64,000 nt of DNA, from positions 124,001 through 188,000 of the forward strand of contig NZ_JABGBW010000001.1 in NCBI RefSeq assembly GCF_014229965.1, in the 5' to 3' direction. The translations under genes were made by a program, and so were the position numbers. Each line of letters opens with the position of its first letter. Position 1 is the stretch's first letter. Below the pieces are notes generated by a model. The model searched no databases. It was not told the origin of the DNA and worked only from the letters and a program-made list of their open reading frames with translations. Source of the stretch: Peptostreptococcus canis (GTDB lineage Bacteria > Bacillota > Clostridia > Peptostreptococcales > Peptostreptococcaceae). Positions 44,223 through 62,644 of this stretch are shown here, one piece after another.

Positions 44223-44358
44223 TTCAGGACTCCTCTCTTAAAATTTTTTTATATTCTATCATAAATAATCACAAAACACAACACAAGCGTTCTGTTTAAT
44301 ATTTTCGGATAACGCTTTAATATCAGCGATAATAGAAGAAAATATTTTATAATAACTC

Positions 44359-44387
44359 TTGACAGAACGAAAATGAACTACTGTAAT
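44359..44387 (+). promoter_or_regulatory. Promoter of the excisionase-integrase unit
   Basis: TTGACA (44,359-44,364), 17 bases and TGTAAT (44,382-44,387). It lies about 120 bases before the excisionase; the intervening sequence has no convincing gene. Nothing else is visible between 44,223 and 44,507. Confidence 0.6.
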
Positions 44388-44507
44388 GCGAATATACAGT
44401 TCAAATACGAACTGTTAAAACGCAAGATATTTAGATTGACGCTCGTCCTATCTCAAAACATGGATGCAGAACCTTGCAAAAACTATGAATTGAAAGGAGG
44501 GTTAAAA

Positions 44508-44702
44508 ATGCAAAAGATATTCATGACAGCAAAAGAAGTTCAAGATTTTTTGGAAGTCAGCAGAACGACTGCATATCAGCTGATCAACGAAATGAATCAG
44601 GAACTTACAAAGCTCGGCTATCGAGTACAAAGAGGCAAAGTGAATCGATAGTATTTCATGGAAAAGTATTGCTATGGGAATGAAGTTAGAAAAGAGGTGT
44701 AA
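44508..44702 (+). pseudogene. xis: Excisionase, interrupted by TAG
   Basis: Starts well (AAAGGAGG before the ATG) and reads MQKIFMTAKEVQDFLEVSRT, a MerR/Xis winged helix, up to RGKVNR. A TAG at 44,649-44,651 then stops it, but the same frame continues YFMEKYCYGNEVRKEV to TAA at 44,700-44,702. A single CAG-to-TAG change explains the break. The last about 17 residues would be missing, probably harming function. Confidence 0.8.
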
Positions 44703-44704
44703 AG

Positions 44705-45829
44705 GTGGGTGCATATAGAGATGAAAATAAAAACGGCACTTGATATTGCAAGTTCAGCTATGTGAATTGGAAAGGTGAGAAGCTAAACAAGAAAAAAAGA
44801 GGGTTTTCAACAAAGAAGGAAGCATTGAATTGGGAAAAAGAGTTTCTATCACAGCAAGCAGGAACGGTTGAAATGACTTTTCGAGAGTTCTTTGAACTTT
44901 ATAAAAGGGATAAAAAGCCTCGTATCAGAGAAAATACTTGGCGTACGAAAGAAGCTATTGTTACAACAAAAATAATGCCATATTTGGGTGATTTACTTAT
45001 GAATGAAATCAGCAATGTAGCGATTATCCAGTGGCAGAATGAATTGATGAAAATAAAAGATGATAGAGGTCAAACTTATTCGCCGACATACCTTCGCACA
45101 ATCCATGCTCAACTTAGCAGTATTTTGAATCATGCTTGCAGATACTACAACTTGAAAACTAATGTTGCCAGAGATGTTGGAACTATGGGAGAAAAAGAAG
45201 CGGATGAAATGCTATTTTGGACACAGGAAGAGTATGAAGCTTTTATCAAGGCAGTTAAGGATAAACCGCATTCATATTATGCCTTTGAAATTCTATATTG
45301 GTGCGGGCTTCGGATGGGAGAGCTTCTTGCCTTGACTAAAGAGAAATTTGATTTTAAGACAGGAACCATAAAAATTGATGAATCTTTGCAAAGGATTGAT
45401 GGAAAGAATATTATCACTCCACCAAAAACGAAGAAGAGCATTCGGAAAGTAGCTATGCCGGATTTCTTGGCTGAAGAAATCAAAATATACTTGAATGGAT
45501 TTTATAAATTAAAGTCAAAGGATTTGATATTTACATTTTCAAAGAGCTTCCTTCATCACGAAATGAATAGAGGAGCAAATAAAGCTAATGTAAAAAGGAT
45601 AAGGGTGCATGATTTGAGACATTCTCATGTATCTCTTCTAATTGAACTTGGTTTTTCTGCAACAGCTATCGCTGATAGAGTCGGGCATGAGTCAATTGAT
45701 ATTACCTACAGATATGCACATCTTTTTCCTAGTAAGCAGAAAGAAATGGCAGATTCGCTAACACAGGTGAGAGTAAAAACACAAAATGATTGGGAAGATT
45801 TATTGAAAGAGGATGAAGAAAATGTTTAG
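44705..45829 (+). pseudogene. int: Tyrosine integrase, interrupted by TGA near the start
   Basis: From the GTG at 44,705 the frame reads VGAYRDENKNGT, then TGA at 44,741-44,743, then YCKFSYVNWKGEKLNKKK without loss of frame. A TGG-to-TGA change is the simple explanation, since the arm domain of the intact homologue at 8.2-9.2 kb has GLWRVQ here. A restart at GTG 44,762 would give 355 residues lacking the first strand and with no ribosome site. The catalytic residues (GLRMGE, HDLRHSH, GHES and Y) remain. Confidence 0.82.
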
Positions 45830-46184
45830 ACCGGAATCTCTACAAAAAAGGACAAAGCAGATTAAAGAAAAGAAGATAAAGAACGAGAAAAACAGAAAGC
45901 GTAATCGCATCTTGAATTTCAGAGTTTCTCAGGAAGAATATGATTTGATAAATAAGCAAGTCGAAATAAGCGGACTGTCAAAACAGGACTACTTTATACA
46001 ACTTCTTGGTGAACACAAGATAAATATTACAGCTGATTATAGAGTTTTAGATGCCATAGCAAAAGAGATATTTCAGTTGGCAAGAGTAATTAAAAAGTTC
46101 GGGAAATTAGATGAAGAAGAGCAGGACATCTTGCTTTATGTTTTAGAGATTTATGAAGAGATTAAACAAGAAAAAAGCCTTTAG
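45822..46184 (+). CDS. MobC-like/ribbon-helix-helix relaxosome protein
   Basis: About 120 residues. A strongly basic N-terminus is followed by NFRVSQEEYDLINKQVEISG, the ribbon-helix-helix-like start typical of MobC and related plasmid mobilisation proteins, then a helical C-terminus. The ATG at 45,822 is preferred for spacing to GAAAGAGG and overlaps the integrase end. No relaxase follows. Confidence 0.65.
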   Translation: MFRPESLQKRTKQIKEKKIKNEKNRKRNRILNFRVSQEEYDLINKQVEISGLSKQDYFIQLLGEHKINITADYRVLDAIAKEIFQLARVIKKFGKLDEEEQDILLYVLEIYEEIKQEKSL

Positions 46185-46265
46185 CCAACAGACCAAAGGC
46201 AAGATGAAAGTACAACTTGGTATTTCATCCCTGAGAAGACTATTTTATCAGGTTGTACTTTTGTC
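46173..46265 (+). promoter_or_regulatory. Attenuator-like leader before primase
   Basis: GCCTTT/AAAGGC (46,173-46,192) is followed by two mutually exclusive pairings: GATGAAA (46,203-46,209) with TTTCATC (46,223-46,229), or AAAGTACAAC (46,207-46,216) with GTTGTACTTT (46,252-46,261). The last resembles a terminator. This could set primase expression or be the target of an antisense RNA. Confidence 0.45.
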
Positions 46266-46289
46266 ATCAACTATAGATTGGAGGACAAC

Positions 46290-47213
46290 ATGATAAAAAC
46301 GGAACAGTATAAACAAAATATTCCGATGGAATTAAGACAGTATAAACAGTGGTTATGGTTTAAGAAAATCAGAAGAGTAGATTTGAAAGGCAAGGAAAAA
46401 ATACTAAAGCTTCCTGTGAGTCCAATTACTTTAAAGTCAAGTGATTGGAATAATAAGGAAAACTGGGCAGACTTTGAAACAGCAGTTAATAATATAGAGA
46501 GTAGTGGCTCAGATGGATTGTCTTTTGTACTAAGCATAGATGATCCATTTATTTGTATTGACTTGGATAATGTATCTCGTGATATGAGAGAAAGGTTTTT
46601 CAGAGATTTTCATGACACTTATATTGAAATTTCTCAATCCGGTAAAGGACTTCACATTTTTGCAAAAGGGGAAATTGCTGATAATTTCAATAACCAAATT
46701 GAGAAAGTGGAAATGTATCAAAATAACAGATGTATCGCTATGACCGGGAATAGTGTTGCCGGAACCTCAAATAACATCATAGATAAGCAAAGTGAGATTG
46801 ATAGATACTATGAGTGTTTTGCACCTAAAAAGAGCGTTAGAGAGCAAATAAGAGCTTATCAATCAGATAATGATATACTGCCTGATATACCTAAAATCAT
46901 AGAAACGATGTGTAAGCATAATAGAAAAGCTAAAGGTTTATTTGAAGGAACAATAGCAAGCGGAGATGCCAGCAAAGATGATTTTTTGCTGTTGCTATTA
47001 TTAAATAGCTATACACATGGTGATGAAGCTTTGATGAAAGAGATATTTTTAATGTCTGCATTAAATCGGAGTGATGACAGAAGCAAAAGAAAAAATGAAG
47101 CAGCCTATATCAAATATTTGGAAGATAGTATAAAAAAAGCGACTCGGTATGAAAATCAAAAATACTGGGACTATAACTATCACAGAAAAAGTGTAGGTGA
47201 TAACCGTGAATGA
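46290..47213 (+). CDS. Primase-polymerase-like replication protein
   Basis: 307 residues from the ATG at 46,290 behind GGAGG. FICIDLDNV (about 90) and SQSGKGLHIFAKG (about 114) form the catalytic core of AEP/NrS-1-type primases found in integrative elements. The C-terminal helical region (ASGDASKDDFLLLLLL) is the usual PriCT-like linker to a helicase. It overlaps the VapE-type gene by 8 bases, so the two formed a replication module. Confidence 0.78.
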   Translation: MIKTEQYKQNIPMELRQYKQWLWFKKIRRVDLKGKEKILKLPVSPITLKSSDWNNKENWADFETAVNNIESSGSDGLSFVLSIDDPFICIDLDNVSRDMRERFFRDFHDTYIEISQSGKGLHIFAKGEIADNFNNQIEKVEMYQNNRCIAMTGNSVAGTSNNIIDKQSEIDRYYECFAPKKSVREQIRAYQSDNDILPDIPKIIETMCKHNRKAKGLFEGTIASGDASKDDFLLLLLLNSYTHGDEALMKEIFLMSALNRSDDRSKRKNEAAYIKYLEDSIKKATRYENQKYWDYNYHRKSVGDNRE

Positions 47214-47430
47214 CTGGCTAAAATTTAGTGATGATGAATTGTCGGATTATCTGAACAGAGAACTCGAATATACCGATAAGGGACAATTAAAAAGTAATAC
47301 TACTAATCTAATCACTGTGCTGGTAAATCCGTTATTTTGCAAAGAAGAGAAGATAATAGACGGAACAGTTTTCTTTGATACATGCAGCATGACAGTCAGG
47401 TTTTTCGGAACTCTTAAGGGAGAAAAACAG
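47206..47430 (+). pseudogene. VapE-type ATPase, N-terminal fragment
   Basis: A GTG start overlapping the primase end. The fragment (DYLNRELEYTDKGQLKSNTT ... FFGTLKGEKQ) is the N-terminus of a virulence-associated E protein. It is cut by IS110 copy 2; the rest resumes at 49,069 in a compatible frame. Confidence 0.85.
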
Positions 47431-47616
47431 AAAGACTAACTATTAAAAGTCAAGAGGTGAAACGAAAAAAGTATAAGGATTGATATTGATAAAAACTGAA
47501 TAAAAATAAGCATGAAAAAATACCCTGGAGTTTAAGATTTTAAAAACAGGGTTAGCAAAGTTTTTGCTTTTTAGATTGTAATTTTTTTCAAAAATTAATT
47601 TACAATTAAGCAAAAA

Positions 47617-48798
47617 CTAACTTTGTTCTTGATAAGGTTCGTTTTTAGTTAAAACAGCAAAAATAGTATGACAAAGCTTTCTAGCAACAGCATTAGTAGC
47701 TACTAAATGATGTTTTCCTTCTGCAATTTTCTTTTGGTAATAATTAGAAAAAACAGGGTCACAAAATTCAGCCCTAAGAGCAGATTGAAACAAAGCACGT
47801 CTTAAATAAGGAGAACCTCTTTTAGTCATATGATTAGAAGTGGATTCAAACTCTCCAGACTGAGAAATACCGGCATCAAGACCCGCGTAAGCAACAAGTT
47901 TTGAAGGATTGGAAAATCTTTTAATATCCCCAATCTCACCTAATATTGTAGCTGCATTAACAGAACCAATACCGGGAATGGTAGTAATTGGAGAATTAAG
48001 TTTTTCAAGCAAAATCTCAATTTCATTTTCGACATCTGAAACCTGGTTTTGAATAAAAGAAATTTGCCCGATAAGCATTTTGATTTGAAAACTAAATGAA
48101 TCCATGCAGAAATTAACACCAAAAGAGGTAGAAGTTTTCTTAGAGAGTTCTTCAAGTTTTCTAGTAGCAAATTTTTTCATAGTAACATTGTCTAAAAAAG
48201 ATTGTAAATCTTCAGAACTAATATCTTCAAAATCAGATGGAGATGAAAAATTCTCTAGAATTTGTTTTGAAGTCTTTCCAAAAATATTACTGAAGGAAGA
48301 AGCATATTCAGGGAAAACTTGATCTAAAAGAGCAATTGTTTTTCTCTTAAGATCACCAATTGAAGAAATTAGATAAGATCTAAATCTGGAAAGATTTCTT
48401 AAAGATAAATAATCTTCATTAGAAAGTGATGTTTCAACAAAGTCACCATAACGAAGAAGATCGGCTATTAAAAGAGAATCAATAATATCAGTTTTTCTCT
48501 TTCTAATTTCAATATCTTGTCTCCAACCATCAGTTTGGATTGGATTAATAACACGAACAGTAAAGTTCTTTTGGTCAAGATATGAGTATAGACTTAGCCA
48601 ATAATGACCTGTAGCTTCCATACCAATTTCAAGTTCATTTTTGAAAGGATTTAGTTTAGAAACTAAACTATCTGCTCCATCAATAGAGTTAGAAAAAGAA
48701 AAAGCCTTGAAGATAACTTTTTTCTTATCATCAATTAATGAAGCCACATGAGTATTTTTACCAATATCAATACCTAAATAAAACATTTGATACCTCAT
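47617..48798 (-). CDS. IS110-family DEDD transposase, copy 2
   Basis: 393 residues with the same D11, E61, D104, D107 set and C-terminal PGIGSVNAATIL and QSG motifs as copy 1. Here the first codon is ATG (GTG in copy 1); an internal ATG four codons on is also usable. The frame is intact, so either copy may be active. Confidence 0.93.
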   Translation of the reverse strand: MRYQMFYLGIDIGKNTHVASLIDDKKKVIFKAFSFSNSIDGADSLVSKLNPFKNELEIGMEATGHYWLSLYSYLDQKNFTVRVINPIQTDGWRQDIEIRKRKTDIIDSLLIADLLRYGDFVETSLSNEDYLSLRNLSRFRSYLISSIGDLKRKTIALLDQVFPEYASSFSNIFGKTSKQILENFSSPSDFEDISSEDLQSFLDNVTMKKFATRKLEELSKKTSTSFGVNFCMDSFSFQIKMLIGQISFIQNQVSDVENEIEILLEKLNSPITTIPGIGSVNAATILGEIGDIKRFSNPSKLVAYAGLDAGISQSGEFESTSNHMTKRGSPYLRRALFQSALRAEFCDPVFSNYYQKKIAEGKHHLVATNAVARKLCHTIFAVLTKNEPYQEQS

Positions 48799-49007
48799 AA
48801 AAAATATATTTTAGATAGACATCTCAAAATCCAATAACGTTACTGCCTTATGGTATATACGAAGTACCCTGAAAGGGTCAACATCTAACTTATTCGTAAA
48901 CAGTTAAAAGATTAGAGGACTCACTCTTTCAAGTACGAGATTAAATCTCAAGGAGAAAACGAGTACATTCTATCTAATAACAATATTATACAGTAAAACT
49001 GAATAAT
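48799..49007 (-). ncRNA. Candidate IS110 bridge RNA leader, copy 2
   Basis: Minus-strand counterpart of the leader at 42,051-42,259, with the same TATAAT palindrome and hairpins. It differs from copy 1 in the CGTTTTCTCC window (CGTTCGCTCC in copy 1) and the CGTATATACC window (CGGATTTGCC in copy 1), the places expected for target or donor guides. Confidence 0.5.
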
Positions 49008-49068
49008 ATTCAGTCGAAAAAGGATTATAGGTTACCTTTAACAACCTAAATACATTATATAAGGAGAT

Positions 49069-50227
49069 GAGATCAGAAAAATGGAATGACCATTTAACAA
49101 ATTTTTTAGGGGTGGAAATAGAAAGGGAATTTGGAATTAAGTATTCTAAAAACCGAATGGACGATGCCATAACTTTTATTACTCATAAAAGGGCGGTAAA
49201 TCTTCCTGCTATGTACATGAAGTCACTTCCGTATGATGGTGAGAGACATATTCCTAAATTGCTCCCAAAATATCTTGGAGCGGAAGATACAAAATTAAAT
49301 GCTTGGATTATGGAACATATGTTAGTCGGCATGATAAAAAGAGTTTTTGATCCCGGATGCAAATTTGACGAGCTTATGGTTCTTACGGGAATTCAGGGTG
49401 TAGGCAAAACCAGTTTTATAGAGAAGTTGGCATTATTTCCCGAATGGTATTGCTCATTAAATAATATAAAAGGCAAAGATGCAGTCAGTAATCTTGTTGG
49501 AAAAGTTGTGGTAGAACTTGAAGAATTTGTAGCTCTTAGAAATGCGAAAAGTGCTGATGAAGCGAAGCTGTTTATATCTGCAAGAATAAGCACGGTAAGG
49601 CTTCCATACGAACGATTTTCTGCTGATGTAAAGAGAACTTGTATCTTGATTGCTACTACCAATGATGCGACTTTTTTAGGAGATTTTTCCGGAGAAAGAC
49701 GGTATCTACCTGTAAAAGTGAATAGCGAAAATATTGAATTACCAGTTATGTATGATGTAGAAAAATTTCCTGTACTGGAAACTATCACAAGAGAAGAACA
49801 TCGTAATATTATTCAACATGATTTTGAAGGTGCTATTGCAGAAGCCGTGTATCTTTATGAAAACAAACTTCACGATTTCTATTTACCTAAAGAGTTAAGA
49901 ACGGATCTGGATTATGTTATCCAAACCCATAAGAGTGAGAACAGACACGTTCAAAACTTCTTGGACTTCATGGAATGGAAATCCACAAAATCAGACACTC
50001 CAGATTTGTTATGCTCTGCCGAATTTACAAGTAGATACCCTGAAACCAATGAAAAAGTATTTTTCGAATTGATGGCAAACGAAATGGCAGATGAATGGAA
50101 ACTTGAACCATCTGTAAAAAGTAAGAAGGTAAGAATTGACGGAGTGGTTCGGGTGAGCAAGAAGTTTTATAGGAGAAATGAAAATACTGATTTTATTGAG
50201 GTTGATCCTTCGGAGATACCATTCTAA
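49069..50227 (+). pseudogene. VapE-type ATPase, C-terminal fragment
   Basis: Continues the gene broken at 47,430: KYSKNRMDDAITF, then YLGAEDT, GIQGVGKTSF (Walker A), and a helicase superfamily 3-like core (LIATTNDATFLGDFSGERRYLPV). An ATG created at the IS end follows AAGGAG with almost no spacing, so some expression as a 386-residue protein starting at 49,067 is conceivable. With the upstream primase it formed the replication unit of the element. Confidence 0.85.
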
Positions 50228-50240
50228 GAGTTTTAAAAAA

Positions 50241-50302
50241 GTCCGCTACCGCTACTTCGCTACCAGCAAGAGAAGGTAGTGAGGTAGTGGTAGCGACAAT
50301 TT
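50241..50302 (+). terminator. Long GC-rich hairpin after the VapE gene
   Basis: GTCCGCTACCGCTAC-TTCGCTACC and GGTAGTGAGGTAG-TGGTAGCGAC form a stem of more than 20 positions with several mismatches, followed by AATTTTT. It is built from repeats of GCTACC/GGTAG. Likely a terminator; an origin-related role is also possible. Confidence 0.55.
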
Positions 50303-50412
50303 TTAACTTTTATAGAATTTACGGAAATGAAACAGGGAATATTTCTGTGATGGTTAAGAGCATGAAGAAGCTTGATAAATGGAATATGGCATGAACTTTA
50401 ATAGCAAGCACA

Positions 50413-50432
50413 GTAAGTGTGTGTACACTTAC
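50413..50432. other. oriT: oriT-like hairpin upstream of mobC
   Basis: GTAAGTGT (50,413-50,420), loop GTGT, ACACTTAC (50,425-50,432): a perfect 8-bp stem followed by GGAAAAATGACTT, about 100 bases before mobC. Perfect short hairpins just upstream of mobC are typical of relaxase recognition sites in mobilizable elements. The nick site cannot be placed without the relaxase. Confidence 0.45.
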
Positions 50433-50531
50433 GGAAAAATGACTTCAGAAATCAAATCGAAGATTTAATTTCGAGCAACATTTTTAGCTTGTTAGGGAGA
50501 ACCCTAAGACCCCAGAAGGAGGATATTTAAG

Positions 50532-50873
50532 ATGGAAAATAGAAAGAGAAATATAAGGTTGAGATTTGATTTAACAGATAAAGAAAAAGAATTGTTTGAA
50601 AGGAAAAAAGAAGAAAGCAGAGCAAAAAGCATGAGCCGCTTTATACGAAAAACAGTTTTAGAAAAGGAAATTTATGAAGTTGACTTGAAGCCTTTGAGAG
50701 ATTTATACGGAACATTATTCGCTGCCACAAATAAATTAAATCAGATTGCCAAGAGAGTAAATCAAACAGGAGTAATTTATAAAAGCGATATTGATGATAT
50801 GAAAAAATCTATCGAAAAGTTCTCAAAAGAGCAAGGGACTATACATTCGTTGTTGCTGAAAAGGACGAAATGA
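50532..50873 (+). CDS. mobC: MobC relaxosome protein
   Basis: 113 residues. N-terminal ribbon-helix-helix (RNIRLRFDLTDKEKELFERK) and the MobC signature NKLNQIAKRVNQTG (about 79-92), then a short helical end. It helps a relaxase open oriT. AGAAGGAGG lies before the ATG. The stop codon overlaps an ATG (50,870) where a relaxase gene would begin, but that frame ends after five codons; a restriction cassette follows instead. Confidence 0.85.
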   Translation: MENRKRNIRLRFDLTDKEKELFERKKEESRAKSMSRFIRKTVLEKEIYEVDLKPLRDLYGTLFAATNKLNQIAKRVNQTGVIYKSDIDDMKKSIEKFSKEQGTIHSLLLKRTK

Positions 50874-50891
50874 TTTACAACGAATGAAGCG

Positions 50892-50953
50892 CTAACAACT
50901 TCTTGCAGCTGTATATTTTAACAGTTGTAAGAAGTTGTTAGATGTGGTATAAT
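50892..50953 (+). promoter_or_regulatory. Promoter inside a large palindrome, restriction cassette
   Basis: CTAACAACTTCTT (50,892-50,904) pairs exactly with AAGAAGTTGTTAG (50,929-50,941), with CAGCTGT/ACAGTTG inside. TTGTAA (50,925-50,930), 17 bases and TATAAT (50,948-50,953) form a promoter whose -35 lies in the right arm. This is a plausible operator for the XRE protein encoded next. Confidence 0.65.
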
Positions 50954-50976
50954 ATTTTAAAATATAGGAGGTATAA

Positions 50977-51204
50977 GTGGTGAGTAATGAAATTAAATTT
51001 TTAATAAATGATGTGCTTAGTGAAAAGAAATTGAGTAAAAACTGGCTAGAAGAAAATGCTAAGTTACAAAGAAGTCAGTTAAACTCCTATGCAAATAACA
51101 AAGTGAAAAGAATAGATCTTGATGTATTAGCAAGGATATGCATTGCGTTGAATGTTGAGGTTGGAGATATTATGAAAATTCAACATAAAATCGGAGGAAG
51201 ATAA
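50977..51204 (+). CDS. XRE-type controller of the restriction cassette
   Basis: About 75 residues, a single Cro/CI-like helix-turn-helix (LSKNWLEENAKLQRSQLNSY, VKRIDLDVLARICIALNVEVGDI). Two adjacent GTG codons (50,977 and 50,980) follow AGGAGG. It ends directly at the start of the methylase-nuclease gene. Small XRE proteins in this position act as C-proteins that time restriction expression. Confidence 0.8.
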   Translation: MVSNEIKFLINDVLSEKKLSKNWLEENAKLQRSQLNSYANNKVKRIDLDVLARICIALNVEVGDIMKIQHKIGGR

Positions 51205-53229
51205 ATGGAAACGAAAGTGGTAATTATTCCAGATGGTAAAATCTGTGATTATATTGATGGTAAATTTAGAAATGATACGCCAGAAGAATATGTAAGACAA
51301 ACTGTTGAGAAAAGACTTGTCAATGAACATAAATACTCAAGAGACAGAATATGTGTTGAATATACTGTCCAAATAGGTTCTGGGAAGAAAAGAGCAGACA
51401 TTGTAATTTTTCCTGATGAAGAAACAGATAAAAAACAAGAAAATATTAAGATAATAATTGAATGTAAAAGTGAAAAGATAGAAGCTAATAATGCTAAGGA
51501 TGGCGTGGCTCAATTAAAATCATATATGTCCGCTTGCCCCAATGCTGAATGGGGGATGTGGACAAATAGTAAAGAAAAGTTTGTCTTTAAAAAATTTACT
51601 GATGATAAAGGTGTAATTCAGTTTATGGATTACAATGATATACCATCTGCAGATGGCAATATTGATGATATCAATCGTCCGAAGAGAGCTTCACTTAAGA
51701 ATGCATCAGATGACAATCTTTTATTTACATTTAAGACTTGCCACAATCACATTTATGTAAATGAAGGAATGCAGAAACAGCCAGCATTTTTTGAGTTGCT
51801 TAAAGTTATTTTTTGCAAAATTGAAGATGAAAGAAATATCCCCAAGGCTCTTGAGTTTTACGCAACGAGTGAAGAGCGATCTAATTCAGATGGACAATTA
51901 ACGGTTAAAAATAGAATTGAAAAAATATTTGATCGCGTAAAAAAAGAAAAAAAGAATGCAAAAATTTTTGATCCTAATGACACTATAAAACTTAACCCCA
52001 GAACATTATCATATATTGTTAGTGAAATTCAAAAATACAGCTTACTTAATACAAGAATTGACATTAAAGGAAAAGCTTACGAGGAAATTGTTGGTGCAAA
52101 TTTGCGTGGCGATAGGGGAGAGTTTTTTACACCAAGAAATGTTATGGCGATGGTAGTAGAAATGATAAATCCAACTATCGACGAAAAGGTATTGGATTCT
52201 TCTTGTGGGACAGGTGGGTTTTTGGTAACTGCAATGACCTATGCAATGAAGCAACTGAAGATAGAATTTGAAAAAGAAACTGGCAAGTTAAAATCTGAAT
52301 GGAACGATTTTGAAAAGAAAGCCTTTCAAGACAAAATCTCAGATATGGCTATGAACAATTATTTTGGATTTGATATAAATCCTGATTTAGTTAAAGCTAC
52401 AAAAATGAATATGGTAATGAATAATGATGGCAGTGGTAATATTTTGCAGAATAATTCTTTACTTCAACCGCATGAATGGACAGATGATTTTAAAATAAGA
52501 TTGTCAGCAGCGTTGCAGATAGATAAGAAAACACTCATCAATAAAGATAGTATAGGATACTTTGATGTTATTGTTACAAATCCACCATTCGGAAGTAAGA
52601 TTCCAATTAAAGACCATGCCATATTAAGCCAATTTGATTTGGCAAAAATTTGGAAGCAAGATAAGAAAACTGGTAAATGGACTATTACTGATAGATACCA
52701 ATCTTCAGTATCACCAGAAATTTTATTTATAGAACGTTGCTATCAATTTTTAAAACCAGGTGGAAGAATGGGAATTGTACTCCCTGATGCTTTACTTGGT
52801 TCACCGGGAACAGGTTATATAAGAGAATGGTTAATCAAAAATACTAAAATCATTGCAAGTATTGACTTGCATGAAGATACATTCCAACCAAGGAATGGTA
52901 CTCAAACTTCCGTGTTGATTTTACAAAAGAAAACTGAAGAAGAAATTTCAAAAGAAGAAACAACTGGGCAAATGGCAGATTATAATATCTATATGGCTAT
53001 AGTTGATAAAATTGGACATGATAAGAGAGGCAATACACTTTTCAAGAGAGATAATGATGGAAATGAGATTATGGTTCCGGAAAAACAAAATATATATAAA
53101 CTTGATGAAACATCATCAGGATTTAAAACCGCTCAAATGGAAAGTAGAGAAAAAGTTGTTGATGATCAAACAATACTTATTCCAAATATTTTTAGAAAAT
53201 GGAAAATAAATGAGGGAATATCATGGTAA
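51205..53229 (+). CDS. Fused restriction nuclease / N6-adenine methylase
   Basis: 674 residues. The N-terminus (about 20-150) is an HsdR-N-like PD-(D/E)xK nuclease with D65 (RADIVIF) and E86-C-K88 (IIIECKSE). The rest is an HsdM-type methyltransferase with motif I LDSSCGTGGF (about 330) and motif IV NPPFGS (about 459). No SF2 translocase domain and no separate HsdR gene exist. With the HsdS-type subunit encoded next, the layout resembles BcgI-like (type IIB) systems rather than classic type I. Confidence 0.85.
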   Translation: METKVVIIPDGKICDYIDGKFRNDTPEEYVRQTVEKRLVNEHKYSRDRICVEYTVQIGSGKKRADIVIFPDEETDKKQENIKIIIECKSEKIEANNAKDGVAQLKSYMSACPNAEWGMWTNSKEKFVFKKFTDDKGVIQFMDYNDIPSADGNIDDINRPKRASLKNASDDNLLFTFKTCHNHIYVNEGMQKQPAFFELLKVIFCKIEDERNIPKALEFYATSEERSNSDGQLTVKNRIEKIFDRVKKEKKNAKIFDPNDTIKLNPRTLSYIVSEIQKYSLLNTRIDIKGKAYEEIVGANLRGDRGEFFTPRNVMAMVVEMINPTIDEKVLDSSCGTGGFLVTAMTYAMKQLKIEFEKETGKLKSEWNDFEKKAFQDKISDMAMNNYFGFDINPDLVKATKMNMVMNNDGSGNILQNNSLLQPHEWTDDFKIRLSAALQIDKKTLINKDSIGYFDVIVTNPPFGSKIPIKDHAILSQFDLAKIWKQDKKTGKWTITDRYQSSVSPEILFIERCYQFLKPGGRMGIVLPDALLGSPGTGYIREWLIKNTKIIASIDLHEDTFQPRNGTQTSVLILQKKTEEEISKEETTGQMADYNIYMAIVDKIGHDKRGNTLFKRDNDGNEIMVPEKQNIYKLDETSSGFKTAQMESREKVVDDQTILIPNIFRKWKINEGISW

Positions 53230-54689
53230 ATTCAGCGACAAAAAAATTAGAAAAAGAATTTATAGAAATAGTTGATTTCCCTAAAGATGATATAAGTTGG
53301 TCAAGTGTATCTTTAAGTGAAGTATTAGAAAGAGATAATAGGCTTGAAGCTTCAACTTTTAATATAGATAGAGCTCATTCGATACAACTTTTAGAAAATA
53401 GTAAATATGATTTGGTGCTTTTAGGGACAAAGGAAATTGGCTTTAAGGATTGTTTTTATGGACCAAGAGCAAAAAGAAACTATTTGACCAATATAGATAG
53501 CACATCAATAGGATTTCTTGGTAGTTCAGAGATGTTAGATATATATCCAAATCCTGTTAAATTTGTTTCTCATGATAATTCTATGGTAGATTCTCTTTCT
53601 TTAACTGAAGGAACAATATTAATATCTCGCTCAGGGACTATAGGCAATGTAACTTTTGTAGGTCAAACATTGTCAAAATTTTTAGTAAGCGAGCATGCAA
53701 TTAGATTGGTTGTGAACGAATTCCCAGGGTTCGTGTATACTTATTTAAAAACTGATGTCGCACAAAATTTGCTCCACGCTGAAAAATTTGGTTCAGTAAT
53801 TTTAGAAATAGAACCTGATGCCTTAAAAAATATGTTGATTCCCAATGCACCTGCCTTAATTAAGAAGAAGATACATGATTTAATAATGGATTCGTATGCT
53901 AATAGAGATGAATCAAATCGTCTTATAGATGAAGCTACCAAAATAATGATAGAAGAATTAGAACTTCCACCTATTGACGATTTAAAGAAAGAAGCTTTTT
54001 CATACAGTAAGGAAATTAACTCTTTTTCAACTAAACTAAGTGATTTAGACGGAAGGTTAGAGGGAAGTTATCATATTCCTTTAATCGAAGTTATTGAAAA
54101 ATATATAAGTAAAAAAGCAATTGTGAAAAAATTGAATAGTGAAGATCTTACAGAAAAAATAATATTGCCAGGAAGGTTCAAACGGATTTATGTGGAAAAA
54201 GGAAACGGAAAAGTATTTTTAGGAGGGAAAGAAATAAATCAGCTTGATCCGAGTAGTAAAAAATTTTTATCTATAAAACATTATTCAGATAAATTGATTA
54301 GAAATATTGCAATAGAAAAAAATGATGTTTTAGTAACGAGAAGCGGATCTGTTGGTAGAGTTATGCTTGCACCAGAACATTGGCAAAATTGGATTTCTAG
54401 TGATCATGTTATTAGAATTTCGTCCAAAAAATCATATCATGGGCTGATTTTTACATGGTTGGCATCTGAATATGGAAAAGAGTTAATGAAAAGGCAAATA
54501 TACGGTTCTGTTGTAGATGAAATTACAGATAAACAATTAGGGGATGTGGTTATTCCTGTTTTTAAAGAGGATACTATAAATAATTCAATTTTAAGCTTAA
54601 TCAATAAGGCAAATGAATTAAGATATCATGCTTATAAGCAAGAGCAAAAAGCGATTGAAATAATGAACAGAGAAGTTTTAGGCTTGTAA
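53223..54689 (+). CDS. Specificity subunit (HsdS-like)
   Basis: 488 residues with two target-recognition domains, each ending in the typical helix: first half to about 240 (SRSGTIGNVTF, then LLHAEKFGSVILEIEPDALKNM), second half 270-488 (TRSGSVGRVMLA, then YGSVVDEITDKQLGDVVIP). It gives the nuclease-methylase its bipartite DNA target. The ATG overlaps the end of the upstream gene by 7 bases. Confidence 0.9.
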   Translation: MVNSATKKLEKEFIEIVDFPKDDISWSSVSLSEVLERDNRLEASTFNIDRAHSIQLLENSKYDLVLLGTKEIGFKDCFYGPRAKRNYLTNIDSTSIGFLGSSEMLDIYPNPVKFVSHDNSMVDSLSLTEGTILISRSGTIGNVTFVGQTLSKFLVSEHAIRLVVNEFPGFVYTYLKTDVAQNLLHAEKFGSVILEIEPDALKNMLIPNAPALIKKKIHDLIMDSYANRDESNRLIDEATKIMIEELELPPIDDLKKEAFSYSKEINSFSTKLSDLDGRLEGSYHIPLIEVIEKYISKKAIVKKLNSEDLTEKIILPGRFKRIYVEKGNGKVFLGGKEINQLDPSSKKFLSIKHYSDKLIRNIAIEKNDVLVTRSGSVGRVMLAPEHWQNWISSDHVIRISSKKSYHGLIFTWLASEYGKELMKRQIYGSVVDEITDKQLGDVVIPVFKEDTINNSILSLINKANELRYHAYKQEQKAIEIMNREVLGL

Positions 54690-54708
54690 TGAAGTTGGAG
54701 GGTTTAAA

Positions 54709-55659
54709 ATGGGTAGATCAATAACTAATGCGTTGCTTGATAAATCAAAAGAAGCAATGGTATCTGCTGTACAAATTTATAACAACCCTTTAATTAAATT
54801 TAAGTCCGAGATGTTTATAATCACTGCAATTATTTCTTGGACATATCTTATGCATGCTTATTATAGCAAAGAAAGTATAGACTATAGATATTTTCATATG
54901 AGAGGCAAACGGAAAAGATATGACAGGACTAAAAATGGTGCATATAAACACTGGGAGTTAGAAAGGTGTATAAATGAACAAGCTTCTCCATTAGATAAAG
55001 GTACAGCAAATAATCTCAGGTTTTTAATTGGGATAAGACATGAAATCGAACATCAGAAAACGGATAGCATTGATGAATACATTGGAGCTAAATTACAAGC
55101 ATGTGCATTAAACTATAATAGAGAGATAATCAAAATATTTGGGGATAAGCATAGCATAAAAGATAATTTGAGCTTAGCAATTCAATTTGCTCCAATATCA
55201 CCTGAACAGGAACAGGTATTAAGAAAAGAATCAACAAATGAAATACCGACTAATGTAAGGAATTTTATTGCAACATTTGAATCTGAGTTGGATGATGAAG
55301 AATTGAAATCATTATACTATTCTTACAGGATTGTATATATTCCAATACAAGTAAATCGAGCTAATCAAGCAGATAAAGCAATAGAATTTATTTCTCCAGA
55401 TAGTGATAAAGCAAAAGATGTAGAACGTGTGTTAGTTAAGGCTGTTGAAAAAGCAAAATTTTTGCCTGGTGATATCGTGAAAATGATGAAGGATGAAAGT
55501 TATTCTACATTTAGTATGCATTACCATACTCAATTATGGAAGGCCAAAGATGCTAAAAATAAAAAATACAATTATGGAGTAAGAGTTTCTAAACAATGGT
55601 ATTGGTATGAAAATTGGATCGAAGTGGTTAGAGATTTTTGCCAAAAGAATAATTTTTAG
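54709..55659 (+). CDS. DUF3644 protein with HEPN-like motif
   Basis: 316 residues. The N-terminal helical domain contains R110-H-E-I-E-H115 (IGIRHEIEH), the Rx4H pattern of HEPN ribonucleases, within what I recognise as DUF3644. A C-terminal region ends with YNYGVRVSKQWYWYENWIEVV, similar to EC042-like DNA-reading modules. It lies 19 bases after the specificity gene behind GGAGG, so it is part of the restriction operon. A toxic RNase arm that acts if restriction fails is possible but inferred. Confidence 0.7.
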   Translation: MGRSITNALLDKSKEAMVSAVQIYNNPLIKFKSEMFIITAIISWTYLMHAYYSKESIDYRYFHMRGKRKRYDRTKNGAYKHWELERCINEQASPLDKGTANNLRFLIGIRHEIEHQKTDSIDEYIGAKLQACALNYNREIIKIFGDKHSIKDNLSLAIQFAPISPEQEQVLRKESTNEIPTNVRNFIATFESELDDEELKSLYYSYRIVYIPIQVNRANQADKAIEFISPDSDKAKDVERVLVKAVEKAKFLPGDIVKMMKDESYSTFSMHYHTQLWKAKDAKNKKYNYGVRVSKQWYWYENWIEVVRDFCQKNNF

Positions 55660-55817
55660 CTTAATTATGGATATATCTGATTCTGGAGCTGGAACTGGTA
55701 CTGGGACGGGTAAAAAAATCTAAAAACAAGCTAAAACTGAACGAATTTCCCAGCATACAATAAACGAAAAGCCTGTATTTTGAACAGTTTTGAATGTAGT
55801 GAACAGTAGAAAAAGAA
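55660..55817. other. Junction spacer with CTGGNA repeats
   Basis: CTGG repeats (CTGGAG CTGGAA CTGGTA CTGGGA, 55,682-55,705) could encode a Gly-Thr tail (SGAGTGTGTGK) in a frame from an ATG at 55,667 with no ribosome site. It may be the C-terminus of a deleted transfer protein. Nothing else is visible up to the attachment-like site. Confidence 0.4.
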
Positions 55818-55831
55818 GAGTGGGAGTAGAG
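55818..55831 (+). other. Attachment core, third copy
   Basis: GAGTGGGAGTAGAG is identical over 14 bases to 39,961-39,974 and matches the guaA 3' end with one change in 12. It would be the right end of the second element in a tandem array at guaA. Bases 55,832-56,052 contain no gene apart from the terminator at 55,985. Confidence 0.6.
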
Positions 55832-55984
55832 TAACAAATATGTTTCTGTTGTAGAGCTGGTGAAAACGCTGGGTTTTAGCGATTTGAAAGCGTGAAAACT
55901 GCCTTAGTGATACTATTTTGATACTAAAAAGCTGAAAAAGTAGGTTCAAAAGGGAGTTGTTGAATTTAGGTAAATTCTTTAAAA

Positions 55985-56012
55985 CCTCCCATCGTTTAGG
56001 TGGGAGGCTTTT
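55985..56012 (+). terminator. Terminator upstream of the GNAT gene
   Basis: CCTCCC (55,985-55,990) pairs with GGGAGG (56,002-56,007), followed by CTTTT. Confidence 0.75.
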
Positions 56013-56052
56013 GTGAAATTGTGATTGATTAGCTATTGTAGGAGAAATTAAA

Positions 56053-56547
56053 ATGGAAATTAGATATATCATTTCTTCGGATAACAAAAAAATGATAAGT
56101 AGAATATATGAAGAAAGCTGGCGATATGCATACAAAGGAATTATTCCACAGAGTTATCTTGATGCAATTCCTGAAGGTCAATGGGTTAATAATTTTGATA
56201 TTTCAGGATGGTACACAATGGTATGTGTTGAAAATGGAGAATATATAGGGACTTCAAGTTTCTGTAAGTCAAGATTTGAGCAATATTTTGATTTTGGTGA
56301 AATAATTTCAATATATTTTCTACCAAACTATATTAGAAAAGGATATGGAAAGAAATTGCTAGAAGCAGTGATGAGTGAACTCAATAAACAAGGCTTTAAA
56401 GAAATATTCCTTTGGGTGCTTGAAGAAAATTATAATGCAAGAAAGTTTTACGAAAAATTCGGATTTAAATGTACTGGTGATTATCTTGAGGACAACATAG
56501 GTGGAAAAGTGCTGAAAGAAGTCAGATATGTGTATAGTTTTACTTAA
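56053..56547 (+). CDS. GNAT-family N-acetyltransferase
   Basis: 164 residues. The GNAT fold is clear: IISIYFLPNYIRKGYGKKLLEAV (acetyl-CoA-binding motif A, split about 79-101) and NYNARKFYEKFGFKCTGD (motif B). The substrate is unknown. GGAG precedes the ATG. It stands alone between two terminators and outside the second element, so it may be host or passenger. Confidence 0.85.
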   Translation: MEIRYIISSDNKKMISRIYEESWRYAYKGIIPQSYLDAIPEGQWVNNFDISGWYTMVCVENGEYIGTSSFCKSRFEQYFDFGEIISIYFLPNYIRKGYGKKLLEAVMSELNKQGFKEIFLWVLEENYNARKFYEKFGFKCTGDYLEDNIGGKVLKEVRYVYSFT

Positions 56548-56975: not shown

Positions 56976-57722
56976 TTATCCATTTTCTTTTGACCATTTA
57001 ATCGTATCTTCCATCCTATAGCTTATTTCTCTGGACATATCCATAATATGTGCTCTATGGGCTAATCTATCAATTATTGCACCTGTAAGCATAGGATCCT
57101 TAAATACCTCCTCCCATCTTTCGAATGTTAAATTAGTTGTTAATATTATTGAGCCTTTATCATTTCTTGATGCTAGTAAATTAAATAGTATTTCACAACC
57201 GGCTTTATCAAATGAGACATATCCCAGTTCATCTAAAATTACCAAATCATACTTTTCAAATTTTCTTTTGTAATTTGTAAGTTGGTTTTTACTCATCGAT
57301 TCTTGTAACTCAATTATTAAATTTGGAACTGTTGTAAACAATACATTTTTACCTTCAATACAAGCTTTAATTCCTAAAGCAGTTGCATAATGTGTTTTTC
57401 CACATCCCGGTGTACCTATCAGTATGATGTTTTCTTTATTTTCTATGAATTTTAGTTTCTCTAAGTACTCAAACTTTTTATTTAATTCTAAAGAATATTT
57501 ATTTCTATCAAAATCTTCTAAAAATTTCTTGTTTACAAATTTAGTAGTTCTAATTCTTCTTGAAATACCATTGTTTTTTCTTCTTTCAAGCTCTCTTTCA
57601 AGATAGAGTAGTAAAAATTCTTTATTTGATAACCCTAGATTAGATGATTCTTCTAAAAGTTCTTCATGATATTCTCTTAAATATGATAGTTTTAATTCAT
57701 TTGAAAGTTCTTTAATATTCAC
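56976..57722 (-). CDS. istB: IstB-like ATP-binding helper
   Basis: 248 residues. AAA+ ATPase with Walker A GTPGCGKT (103-110), Walker B LVILDELGY and sensor LTTNLTFERW. It directs the IstA transposase to target DNA. The GTG start overlaps the istA stop, the standard istAB coupling. Complete. Confidence 0.95.
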   Translation of the reverse strand: MNIKELSNELKLSYLREYHEELLEESSNLGLSNKEFLLLYLERELERRKNNGISRRIRTTKFVNKKFLEDFDRNKYSLELNKKFEYLEKLKFIENKENIILIGTPGCGKTHYATALGIKACIEGKNVLFTTVPNLIIELQESMSKNQLTNYKRKFEKYDLVILDELGYVSFDKAGCEILFNLLASRNDKGSIILTTNLTFERWEEVFKDPMLTGAIIDRLAHRAHIMDMSREISYRMEDTIKWSKENG

Positions 57723-59178
57723 TTGACACCTCCAACAAGAAGATCATCGTAAGATGAGATTAATATTCGAGTCTTTAATTCTATGTTATTAACTTCTTTT
57801 ACTACATCTTTTGGAATTGTATCTTCTCCGAATTTAATATATTCATTAAAAGCATCAATTAACTCGTCCGTATCTTTTTCTTTATTATTTTTAATTATCT
57901 CTACAAATTTCTTTGGTTCTTTGATAAAATATTTATCGAAGATGGTTTTTAGAAACGGAGTATTTTTCAATGCAAGTGAATTTCTAATTGCTCCCGGTTT
58001 TCTTTCTAATGAAGTTAAGTAGTGTTTAATATCAATAGAAACTTCATTAGAGCCATCTTTCTTTTTATGTGAACAAACAAAATTGTCATTTACATAAATT
58101 TTTATCTCTCTTGCATAGTTTCTAATAACTACCGTTTTTCCAACAAGATAGTCCGGTACAGAATATTTATTTTTTTCTGCCTGCACAAAAGAATATGAAT
58201 CTACTTTTTGTGTAGTTATCTTTGCTAAATCATATTTTGGTTTTAATTTTAAAAGATTTTTCTTTTCTTCTTCAATTAATGATGATTCATTCATTTTTAA
58301 AAGTTCTTTTTCTAAATACTCCTCAGCTTGTTCGAAGCTATCAAATTCGTACTTAGGAGCAAATACGCTTTTTCTAATTATCTTAACACTACCTTCAACA
58401 TGTCCTTTTTCATTCCCACTAAAACAATTAGTAACATTGATATTAAACCCATAGTAATTTGCAAAAGCTAAAAGATTTGGATTTAAGTCTTTTTCATTTT
58501 TTCCAATAAATCTAGTAACTACATTTTTCATATTATCGTAAACAACTTCTTTGTACAAACCTCCAATCATTTCGAAAAATCTTACTTGTGAATCAAAAAA
58601 CACTTCAGAAGTTTGGTTTTTGTAAAGAAATGCCCATCTAAAGTTTGAACAAGGAGATGATAAAACCGCTAAACTAAGGTCTTTAAGCTCTCCATTTATC
58701 ATAAGTTTAACAACTCCAAAATCATATTCTAATCTATCTCCATAATCATATTCTTGTTTTATGAAACATTCTTTTAATTTTTTCTCTTATTTCTTATATA
58801 AACAACAATTGATTGATAGCTTATATCAAATCCTTTATCAACTACCATTTTATGAATTTGAACAATACTTAAAGATTGTTTATGATTTTTAAGTTTCAAA
58901 TCTTTTTCTTTTTCGCTTTCTAATATTTTATCCAAATATTCGTCCAATTCTTTAGTATATTTAATTTTCTTTCTATTGGTGCTGTTATATTTAGGCTTTT
59001 GTGCTATTTTCTCTTGAACAATTCCAGCATCTATATTTTCTTTCTCAAGTTCTTTTTGAAGTTGTTCGTATTCATTCCAGTATTTTGCTACAGTTTTACG
59101 ATTAACCCCCAGTTTCTTAGATATTTCTCTATTTGAGTCGCCTTCCAGTTTAAGTCTTATTATTGCATGCTTATCCAT
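57719..59178 (-). CDS. istA: IstA transposase, two frames joined by -1 shift
   Basis: About 486 residues if frames are joined. The upstream frame starts at ATG 59,178 (MDKHAIIRLKLEGDSNREIS, a helix-turn-helix) and ends RNKRKN-stop at 58,774. The -1 frame continues KKLKECFIKQEYDYGDRLEY into the DDE (rve) core (VVYDNMKNVV, CFSGNEKGHVEG). The join falls on codons AGA AAA AAT TAA, giving A_AAA_AAT, so programmed slippage is possible; a simple lost or gained A in the A6 run is the alternative. Confidence 0.82.
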
Positions 59179-59874: not shown

Positions 59875-60759
59875 ATGAAAGATGAGAATACTTTGATACC
59901 GATAGATGAAACAAGCATCACAAATCTAATCTACACCATTCGTGGGAAGCAGGTAATGATTGATAGGGACTTAGCTGACTTATATCAAGTTCAAACCAAA
60001 AGGTTGAATGAGCAAGTCAAAAGAAACTCAGCTAGATTTCCTGAAGAGTTTTGCTTTAGACTTAGTGCAGAAGAAAAGAATGAACTGGTCGCAAATTGCG
60101 ACCGGTTCACTACCATGAAACATTCATCATCGAATCCATATGCTTTTACGGAACAAGGCATTGCTATGCTTTCCGCTGTCCTTAAAAGTGATATTGCAGT
60201 AGAAGTAAGCATAAGGATTATGAATAGCTTTGTGGAGATGAGAAAATTCCTGCTTTCAAATCAACAACTTTTTTCGAGGCTGGATAGAGTGGAGTTAAAA
60301 CAGTTAGAAACAGATAAGAAACTTGAAGAAGTATTCAACTACATTGCGAGCAATACAGAGGTAAAACAAAAGATCTTTTTTGACGGACAAATCTATGATG
60401 CCTTCAGTTTTATTGCAGATCTAATTGGAAAAGCACAGAGAAAACTGATCTTGATGGACAATTATGTGGATGTAAATACCCTTAACATACTCTGCAAGAA
60501 GAATTCAGGAGTTGATGTATTGATAGCAACAGCAGGAAAAGGCAGCTTAACGACAAAAGATATCAACAAGTTTAATGCCCAGTACCCAAGTTTGAGCGTG
60601 AAAACGACCATGGATTTTCATGACCGTTTTTTGATCATAGATGATAAAGAAGGATATTTTATAGGAGCATCCATAAAAGATGCAGGCAAGAAGAGTTTTG
60701 CGATAACAAAGATTGAAGATGGGAAAATGGTTCAGGATTTAATAAATAAAGTGAAGTAG
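59875..60759 (+). CDS. ORF6N-domain protein with PLD-like C-terminus
   Basis: 294 residues. N-terminal ORF6N domain (about 10-110: MIDRDLADLYQVQTKRLNEQ, NPYAFTEQGIAMLSAVL). The C-terminal half (about 170-290) contains DFHDRFLIIDDKEGYFIGAS, resembling a phospholipase D-type HxD catalytic or binding motif. Proteins of this kind (RhuM-like) are often found inside restriction operons; role unknown. It lies between the controller and mod in one direction. Confidence 0.8.
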   Translation: MKDENTLIPIDETSITNLIYTIRGKQVMIDRDLADLYQVQTKRLNEQVKRNSARFPEEFCFRLSAEEKNELVANCDRFTTMKHSSSNPYAFTEQGIAMLSAVLKSDIAVEVSIRIMNSFVEMRKFLLSNQQLFSRLDRVELKQLETDKKLEEVFNYIASNTEVKQKIFFDGQIYDAFSFIADLIGKAQRKLILMDNYVDVNTLNILCKKNSGVDVLIATAGKGSLTTKDINKFNAQYPSLSVKTTMDFHDRFLIIDDKEGYFIGASIKDAGKKSFAITKIEDGKMVQDLINKVK

Positions 60760-60769
60760 GAGGAGTTTA

Positions 60770-62644
60770 ATGATTAAGGATAATATCTTATATAATGAGA
60801 GTACGAAACCGAACAGTAGAGAAATAGAAGTTTTAAAAAATACTTTTCCACAGTATTTTGATAAAGATGGAAATTTTTATTGGGATAGATTTAAGGAAAT
60901 TTTGAAGAATGAAGAAATCTCTTTAAACAAGGAAGGGTACGAACTGAACTTTCTGGGGAAGTCTTATGCGAGATATTTGAGTTCGACAAGGACAGAAACG
61001 TTTATAGCTCCTCATACTGAGCATAATGAAGCAGAAGAAAACAAAGATAGTGAGAATTTATATATTATTGGAGATAATCTGGATGCTTTGAAACATCTTT
61101 TAGGATCTTATGCGGGAAAAATCAAGTGTATTTACATTGATCCACCCTATAATACAGGATCGGATGGATTTGTTTATCCAGACAATTTTTACTTTGATGC
61201 CAAGAAACTATCGAAAATGATAGGTGTAGAAGAAGAGGAAGCTGATAGGATTATAAATTTGAAAGGGAAAAGTTCTCATTCTGCATGGATGAGTTTTATC
61301 TATCCGAGATTAATATTGGCAAGAGAATTGCTTTCAGAGGATGGGGTAATATTTATCTCTATTGATTACAATGAACAGGCAAATTTAAAGCTAATATGCG
61401 ATGAGATTTATGGTGAAGAAAACTTTGTTGGAGAAATATATTGGGAGTCAAAAACAAAATCTCAAAATACGCAAACTTCATATAATAAACTACAACCAAA
61501 GGCGGAGAAGATTTTTGTTTATAAAAGAAAAAGCAAAGATAGGTTTAATTTGATTGAAAAAGGACAGAAAGAATACCCTTTTACAGATGAACAAGGAGAG
61601 TATAGAGAACATATTTTAGAAGAAATGAATTCCGAGGGGATTAGAGGAAGGGAAACTATGGTTTTTGATATAACAGACGGAGTTTCCACTGTTTCTCCGA
61701 ATTCGGGTAAACAGTGGAAACTTGGTCAAGACCAAGTTTCCATATATAAGGAAAGTAATAATCTTTTTATTCGAGATGGTAAAGTAGTTATTAAAATGCG
61801 ACCATATTTTGAAAGAACTTCCGTTATGGAGCCGTTTTGGGGGTTTATTGACAAAAGTATGGGAACAACAGAGAGTGCTAAAAAAGATTTAAAGAAGTTA
61901 ATGGAATGCGAAGCGTTTGATACAGTAAAACCTATAAATCTAATAAAGAAATTAATATTTCACGCTACAAATAAAGAGGATATCATTTTAGACTTCTTTT
62001 CCGGCTCCGGAACTACAGCCCATGCAGTGATGAATTTAAATGCAGAAGATGGTGGAAACCGAAAATATATCCTTGTGCAAATTCCGGAACTTATAAAAGA
62101 AGACAAACCGGCATATAAGGAAGGACATCGAACAATAGATGAAATTGGGCGTGAAAGAATTAGACGAGCTGCTAAGAAGATTCAAGAGGAAGCAGGGGCT
62201 GACATTGACTATGGCTTTAAGGTTTATTCATTAAAAAGTTTGGAAGAAGAAGTCATTACCAATCTTGACTATTTTGATGATAACCCAAAACTGTTTCTCG
62301 ATGATATGGTTGGTATCTTCGATACGGAAAAGTCAAAAGGAAAAGATGCGATTTTATCTACTTATCTTGCTTTAGATGGATATGGTTTGAGTGTGAATAC
62401 ACAAAAATACAGGCTTTCAAATTTTGAAGCAGATAAGATAAAAAATAGCATTTACATGATTGATAATGGTTTGGATTCGGATGATGTCATGGAATTAATC
62501 AAGAGGATTGAAACTTTAGAACTTGATATTACAAGAGTGGTGGTCTATGCTCCTTCTCTTAGTTTTCATGCGTTACATGAACTCAAAAAAAATCTTTCGA
62601 ACTTGAGAAATAACAAGTCTGTAGAATTGATAGAGAGGTATTGA
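60770..62644 (+). CDS. mod: Type III methyltransferase subunit Mod
   Basis: 624 residues. Beta-class N6-adenine methylase with motif IV DPPYNTG (124-130) before motif I LDFFSGSGTT (about 407-416). The central variable region (about 215-370) is the target-recognition domain. It recognises the site and methylates one strand; with Res it restricts. GGAGGAG precedes the ATG. Frame intact. I see no simple-sequence repeat in the 5' part that would suggest phase variation. Confidence 0.94.
   Translation: MIKDNILYNESTKPNSREIEVLKNTFPQYFDKDGNFYWDRFKEILKNEEISLNKEGYELNFLGKSYARYLSSTRTETFIAPHTEHNEAEENKDSENLYIIGDNLDALKHLLGSYAGKIKCIYIDPPYNTGSDGFVYPDNFYFDAKKLSKMIGVEEEEADRIINLKGKSSHSAWMSFIYPRLILARELLSEDGVIFISIDYNEQANLKLICDEIYGEENFVGEIYWESKTKSQNTQTSYNKLQPKAEKIFVYKRKSKDRFNLIEKGQKEYPFTDEQGEYREHILEEMNSEGIRGRETMVFDITDGVSTVSPNSGKQWKLGQDQVSIYKESNNLFIRDGKVVIKMRPYFERTSVMEPFWGFIDKSMGTTESAKKDLKKLMECEAFDTVKPINLIKKLIFHATNKEDIILDFFSGSGTTAHAVMNLNAEDGGNRKYILVQIPELIKEDKPAYKEGHRTIDEIGRERIRRAAKKIQEEAGADIDYGFKVYSLKSLEEEVITNLDYFDDNPKLFLDDMVGIFDTEKSKGKDAILSTYLALDGYGLSVNTQKYRLSNFEADKIKNSIYMIDNGLDSDDVMELIKRIETLELDITRVVVYAPSLSFHALHELKKNLSNLRNNKSVELIERY

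Follow-up and report, generated by a model that had tools for sequence, protein, structure and literature searches.

How can a restriction-modification (R-M) operon act against foreign DNA without a translocase, and why would it end in a gene of the DUF3644 family? These questions are raised by a locus in a stretch of 64,000 nt of Peptostreptococcus canis DNA (assembly GCF_014229965.1, contig NZ_JABGBW010000001.1, positions 124,001-188,000, forward strand), referred to here as the window. An earlier note on this DNA had reported four genes, and the open reading frames (ORFs) and Pfam families agree with it: on the plus strand, a small helix-turn-helix (HTH) protein is followed by a nuclease-methylase fusion (MT), a specificity subunit (S) and a DUF3644 protein (Table 1).

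The explanation that we consider probable is a type IIB R-M operon carried by a mobile island, with the DUF3644 protein as a second line of defence. S would read a two-part site, and the methylase would mark adenines on self DNA. On unmarked DNA, we predict that the N-terminal PD-(D/E)xK domain of MT cuts near the site without a translocase. The HTH protein would autoregulate the operon through two sites at the -35 element, and the DUF3644 protein would provide a growth-stopping response, kept in check as long as the R-M enzyme remains intact and set free once that enzyme is overwhelmed or blocked. Restriction with an RNase backup had already been proposed in the earlier note, and this interpretation stands in part; the note missed the relationship to the recently described methylation-associated defence system (MADS), the exchange of a specificity domain and the occurrence of DUF3644 with several unrelated R-M types and alone.

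The nuclease-methylase fusion and its specificity subunit

Pfam places HSDR_N_2 at MT residues 26-147 (7.4e-27), in front of N6_Mtase at residues 285-582 (3.3e-32), as expected from the claim that an HsdR-N-type nuclease precedes the methylase. The PD-(D/E)xK residues are intact, the set E52, D65, E86, K88, Q103 and Y107 being unchanged in all 19 aligned relatives; we take Q103 and Y107 to represent a QxxxY motif. RM.BsaXI is the best sequence match of MT in the PDB (E 4.2e-36) and also stands first among the fold matches to the predicted MT model (mean predicted local distance difference test [pLDDT] score 81.7), with a Foldseek E of 7.5e-25 and a VIA Z of 28.5 over 508 aligned residues (root-mean-square deviation [rmsd] 9.6, model range 27-674). 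It counts against a nuclease at the front of MT that only one of three BsaXI rows in the fold alignment reaches the N-terminal domain. According to the accessible text of a paper on BsaXI, E73, D90, E105 and K107 of its N-terminal domain are required for cleavage (PMC11997821). The E-D-E-x-K order of these residues is common to MT, a likeness of order and not a residue-by-residue mapping.

Like the RM + S group of type IIB enzymes to which BsaXI belongs, the window operon combines an N-terminal PD-(D/E)xK domain, a helical connector and an N6 methylase in one chain with a separate S and no translocase partner. Unlike that group, it also has genes for an HTH and a DUF3644 protein, and MT (674 aa versus 916 aa in BsaXI) is too short for the full C-terminal knob and paddle. 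The absence of a translocase had been claimed before and was borne out: Pfam finds no helicase domain in the operon proteins and, with the host genome searched family by family for a separate type I HsdR, HSDR_N and SWI2_SNF2 proteins each gave zero matches. The only other HSDR_N_2 match in that genome is a 155-aa ORF. Among 71 genomes of the host's family no full-length MT was found besides this one, the other matches listed being partial methylases, and no MT-like DNA was found in E. coli at blastn sensitivity. Domains, active-site residues and predicted fold thus support MT and S as a two-subunit, translocase-free type IIB R-M enzyme. Its closest solved relative is BsaXI; the comparison made earlier was with BcgI, another type IIB enzyme of the RM + S group.

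S contains two Methylase_S stretches in Pfam, and its two halves have separate histories. Relative to an island of Colibacter massiliensis (L007), whose MT is 95% identical, S is 93-100% identical from residue 271 onward and 23-47% identical per 30-residue block over its first 210 residues. DNA identity ends at 53365 and returns at 53862. The first recognition domain of S has evidently been swapped, and the replacement of the first half of S beside an MT that is 95% identical fits selection on specificity; on this comparison, the swap argues for a working enzyme. A copy of IS110 does interrupt the replication region of the island relative to L007, as might be expected if the operon were decaying cargo without function, but the four frames are open, the active sites are intact and a recognition domain was exchanged recently, and we regard such decay as very improbable.

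Relation to the MADS core

The best NCBIfam models for MT and S are MAD2 (653.2 bits, cut-off 720) and MAD5 (308.6 bits, cut-off 400). Because both scores fall below their cut-offs, the two proteins can be considered close to MADS but not members of it. Neither MAD6 nor MAD7 was found within 18 kb around the operon, and MAD7 had zero matches in the host genome. Relatives on plasmids include operons in which a kinase gene follows the one for the MAD2-like protein; in one (L143), MAD2, MAD5, MAD6 and MAD7 all score above their cut-offs, as does MAD2 in L142 and L144. E. coli EC11 is annotated with mads1, mads2 (twice), mads5, mads6, mads7 and mads8, and its small leading HTH gene, MAD1, occupies the same place as the HTH gene of the window. 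MADS operons share with the window the order HTH, MAD2-like, MAD5-like; they differ in having MAD6 and MAD7, where the window has DUF3644.

This kinship raises the possibility that the N-terminal domain of MT is not a cutter and that the enzyme mainly methylates, in a MADS- or BREX-like manner, with an unlinked effector. The NCBIfam matches are compatible with this, as is a 2026 review which, in its accessible part, lists MADS among the systems that restrict phage by unknown mechanisms and leaves the table cell for its mechanism blank (PMC12904381). The nuclease residues point the other way. We read the six positions in every full-length MT or MAD2 available; L013 and L079, in which the contig ends within MT, and L153, whose match falls into two pieces, are not part of this count. 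Each of the 26 rows lacking MADS genes (the window and 25 others) retains all six (E, D, E, K, Q, Y), versus none of the 11 MAD2-side rows. Eight of those 11 come from loci with MAD6 in view, and L145, L147 and L148 have none in the available DNA, which in L147 and L148 ends at or just after MAD2; since L158 is nearly identical to L157 (both E. coli) and L147 to L146, the 11 rows represent fewer independent loci. In L144 a one-residue shift could place an E at position 86, but this turns K88 into E and does not restore Q103 or Y107. Given this split, together with the lack of MAD6 and MAD7 near the operon and of MAD7 in the genome, we consider it improbable that MT is a methylase without a cutting domain.

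The nuclease-like domain itself remains recognizable on the MAD2 side, although its catalytic set has been lost. HSDR_N_2 scores were 22.6-40.7 bits in six MAD2 proteins, five of them above the cut-off of 25, versus 75.6-84.6 bits for three compact MTs scored alongside them. In a 33-row tree the rows with lost residues group together in a single clade (100/99) and the outgroup consists of live rows, so that a single loss explains the pattern and independent events need not be invoked. A MAD2 protein from Piscinibacter used as a query retrieved no relative in the viral-contig scan. With its own set intact where the MAD2 rows have lost theirs, the window operon appears to be a compact, live-nuclease relative of the MADS core. 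Such a relative would offer a comparison of the core's own steps with what the MADS additions replace.

A second MAD2 paralogue in E. coli (L157, 15449-17467) has NPWF for NPPF and an altered motif I, and may partner the first paralogue as an inactive methylase.

DUF3644 as a companion of restriction-modification genes

The last protein of the operon matches the DUF3644 profile of Pfam at 1.7e-56 (191.2 bits, cut-off 27.6) and PDC-S19 of PADLOC at 1.2e-144. In PADLOC this is a candidate family without a description; the member in the window sits in an R-M operon. The Rx4H motif for which a HEPN assignment had been suggested (R110-x4-H115) is present in 33 of 33 DUF3644 proteins, distant ones included. 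Residues 1-159 of the predicted model (mean pLDDT 72.1) align with 2hsb at a VIA Z of 11.0 (rmsd 2.3 A, 119 residues aligned). The top of the VIA list consists of HEPN chains, namely MntA-HepT and other HEPN-MNT toxin-antitoxin chains, and Csm6; for those whose PDB titles omit the word, we take the HEPN assignment as given. The phage-defence RNase AbiV follows at Z 8.2. Residues 248-315 show a weak match to CarH (Z 6.0, 57 aligned). Family profile, Rx4-6H motif and predicted fold together make this protein a candidate HEPN-type endoRNase with moderate fold support. Pfam finds DUF3644 alone, so the fused ABC-type NTPase of PrrC and RloC is absent.

DUF3644 is a recurrent R-M companion. We compared 24 genome loci, comprising the window, L007-L015, six from a phylum sample and eight from a class sample; G177, which yielded no DUF3644 ORF, and G659, whose coordinates duplicate those of L014, were omitted. 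R-M genes adjoin DUF3644 in 15 of the 24. The window, L007, L013 and L014 have genes of the MT-S type described here, and L008 and L010 have a different methylase-S pair; type I genes are present in L011 (where the contig breaks off), L012, L015, L115, L132, L135, L137 and L139, and other methylase genes in L111. Some neighbours were assigned by position and reading (S of L015, L115 and L139; the partial methylases of L010 and L011; the methylases of L111). We rejected the idea that DUF3644 is tied to a single R-M type. In 11 of the 15 R-M-linked loci it comes immediately behind S. Six of the type I operons (L015, L115, L132, L135, L137, L139) have it between S and HsdR, with one small ORF intervening in L132.

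Several observations weigh against DUF3644 as an RNase partner of the R-M enzyme. The model falls below a pLDDT of 50 at residues 156-179 and 204-248, and Foldseek alone gave no DUF3644 match under an E of 0.001. Helical bundles can reach middling Z scores by chance and, with the lack of a Foldseek match, the fold support is therefore moderate; additional support comes from the motif and the Pfam match. Nine of the 24 loci are without R-M neighbours, as are all three plasmid loci inspected (L016, L018 and L019, from 26 plasmid records; five loci on viral contigs lie outside the set whose neighbours were scanned by family). Conversely, DUF3644 is downstream of S in none of 17 MT-S loci on viral contigs, where AbiGi (L069) and Mrr (L076) are among the other genes after S. 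DUF3644 and MT-S thus need not occur together, and DUF3644 is able to stand alone.

The same facts may be accommodated by an alternative to which we give appreciable weight, though less than even: DUF3644 would be an independent abortive-infection cargo of these islands, placed behind R-M genes through defence clustering and a shared promoter. Besides the solitary loci, the tree of DUF3644 proteins is compatible with this, as the type IIB-linked rows do not form one group and L013 joins type I-linked rows. The tree is suggestive of swapping and is not decisive, because a single origin is compatible with its firmly supported branches. A further point for independent cargo is L012, in which an island backbone of the same type (vapE 46%, mobC 47% and HTH 58% identical) precedes a type I system, itself in front of DUF3644. 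A position immediately behind S, or between S and HsdR as in six of the type I operons, is however more specific than clustering would require, and we retain the second-line reading, under which an RNase backup role for DUF3644 is a plausible candidate.

Anantharaman et al. (2013) listed DUF3644 among new families of HEPN proteins and, in the accessible part of their paper, proposed that HEPN proteins linked to R-M systems act as a second line, an idea worked out there for PrrC (PMC3710099). Our literature search found no other paper containing the word DUF3644. The window shares with their cases (DUF3644, EC042_2821, PrrC with PrrI) a HEPN protein beside R-M genes; it differs in that its DUF3644 protein lacks both the fused ABC NTPase of PrrC and the restriction endonuclease-like EC042_2821 fusion, and in that its R-M type is IIB and not the type Ic of PrrC-PrrI. 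The EC042_2821 domain is fused to DUF3644 in one group of proteins (L112, L114, L136, L138, L077), all without an adjacent same-strand R-M operon, and is absent from eight of eight R-M-linked DUF3644 proteins scanned. This split is not clean, since five proteins without R-M neighbours (L009, L016, L058, L110, L113) and L134 are also unfused. The pattern is compatible with the 2013 idea that HEPN domains pair with a DNA-cutting partner, and does not prove it.

The general idea of an R-M system with a HEPN backup is thus already in print. Relative to the literature searched, which did not include the original MADS description, what is added here is the type IIB example, the repeated position of DUF3644 behind S and the split between live and dead nucleases with MADS, and the operon is a compact case for a HEPN protein as backup to a restriction enzyme. 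A broader scheme may be entertained tentatively, and we would not yet favour it: HTH, MT and S would form a recognition core with exchangeable killers. The compact form would cut DNA and may add an effector such as the DUF3644 RNase candidate, which in the window would read the state of the core. MADS would be the same core after death of the nuclease, with killing passed on to the kinase, MAD7 and MAD8 and the dead domain kept for sensing or docking.

Two related-looking proteins directly after S in other MT-S operons (L065, 9510-10304; L066, 4132-4593) have no Pfam match and are possibly another companion effector.

Control region, island and neighbouring genes

Table 1. Features of the operon, its control region and its island (window positions unless residues are given)
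Feature	Position	Strand	Remark
Palindrome	50892-50941	.	21-bp arms, 2 mismatches, 8-bp spacer
Two operator-like 8-mers	50905-50912, 50921-50928		inside palindrome, 16 bp apart
Best promoter match	50925-50953	+	TTGTAA-17-TATAAT, TG before -10; consensus match only
HTH protein, Cro/C1-type	50977-51204	+	75 aa; likely autoregulator; position matches MAD1 in MADS operons
MT	51205-53229	+	674 aa; HSDR_N_2, helical connector, N6-adenine methylase with NPPF
S subunit	53223-54689	+	488 aa; two target-recognition domains
First recognition domain of S	about 53366-53861	+	replaced relative to L007
DUF3644 protein	54709-55659	+	316 aa
HEPN-like domain of DUF3644 protein	residues about 1-159		predicted model; with R110-x4-H115
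C-terminal stretch of DUF3644 protein	residues 248-315		predicted model; winged-helix-like
Terminator-like stem 3' of operon	55985-56007	+	1 found; shuffles mean 0.7
Mobile island carrying operon	43793-55829	+	84-95% DNA identity to L007 in four pieces
Integrase	44762-45829		island
NikA-like	45813-46184		island
NikA/MobC-like	50532-50873		island

The operon is likely a single transcript, as MT and S share 7 bp, DUF3644 begins 20 bp downstream of S, and the terminator-like stem is the sole such site within 54500-56100. Its first product matches HTH_26 (7e-14, Pfam). The palindrome with 13-bp arms that had been described is present, with perfect arms at 50892-50904 and 50929-50941 that can be extended to 21 bp with two mismatches. 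Inverted repeats with perfect 13-bp arms and a loop of up to 40 gave six matches in the window, some of them overlapping registers of one repeat, versus a mean of 0.17 and a maximum of 3 in 30 dinucleotide shuffles, indicating that the palindrome is more than chance. The promoter had been placed inside it; the -35 element does overlap the right half, including the right operator-like site, whereas the -10 element lies outside. Promoter-like matches in the control region (four, versus a shuffle mean of 2.5) are not clearly above expectation.

The window contains no other pair of such 8-mers at 16-bp spacing, and the same paired spacing lies upstream of the HTH gene in L007, L063 and L065. L014, L117 and L012 have a single operator-like site and L064 has none, so that paired sites occur in four of the eight HTH-bearing loci, single sites in three and none in one, versus 0 of 14 loci without the HTH gene. 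Since paired sites precede the HTH gene and the right one overlaps the -35 element, autoregulation of the operon by the HTH protein through these two putative sites is likely, in a manner that may resemble that of controller (C) proteins of R-M systems. The palindrome has outer arms whose sequence varies among the window, L007, L063 and L065, yet within each locus they are self-complementary. A role as a DNA operator alone would not obviously require self-complementary outer arms, and an RNA hairpin was considered.

The island also has primase/helicase-like genes, and its DNA has no near match among plasmids. IS110-family transposase genes are found at 47435-49061 (ORF 47617-48798) and 42260-43441. 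Downstream of the operon there is a separate type III R-M system (59875-62644; a like arrangement lies at 2647-5601 of L121), in which an ORF6N-domain gene is followed by a methylase. In the window this methylase, with an EcoP15I C-terminal domain, lies at 60770-62644, and a 984-aa ORF directly after it is in the place of Res. On the minus strand, 40294-41982 encodes an AAA ATPase with an OLD-like TOPRIM domain, of a type common in defence islands, and two adjacent ORFs at 56976-58702 resemble, by reading, an IS21-type transposase pair.

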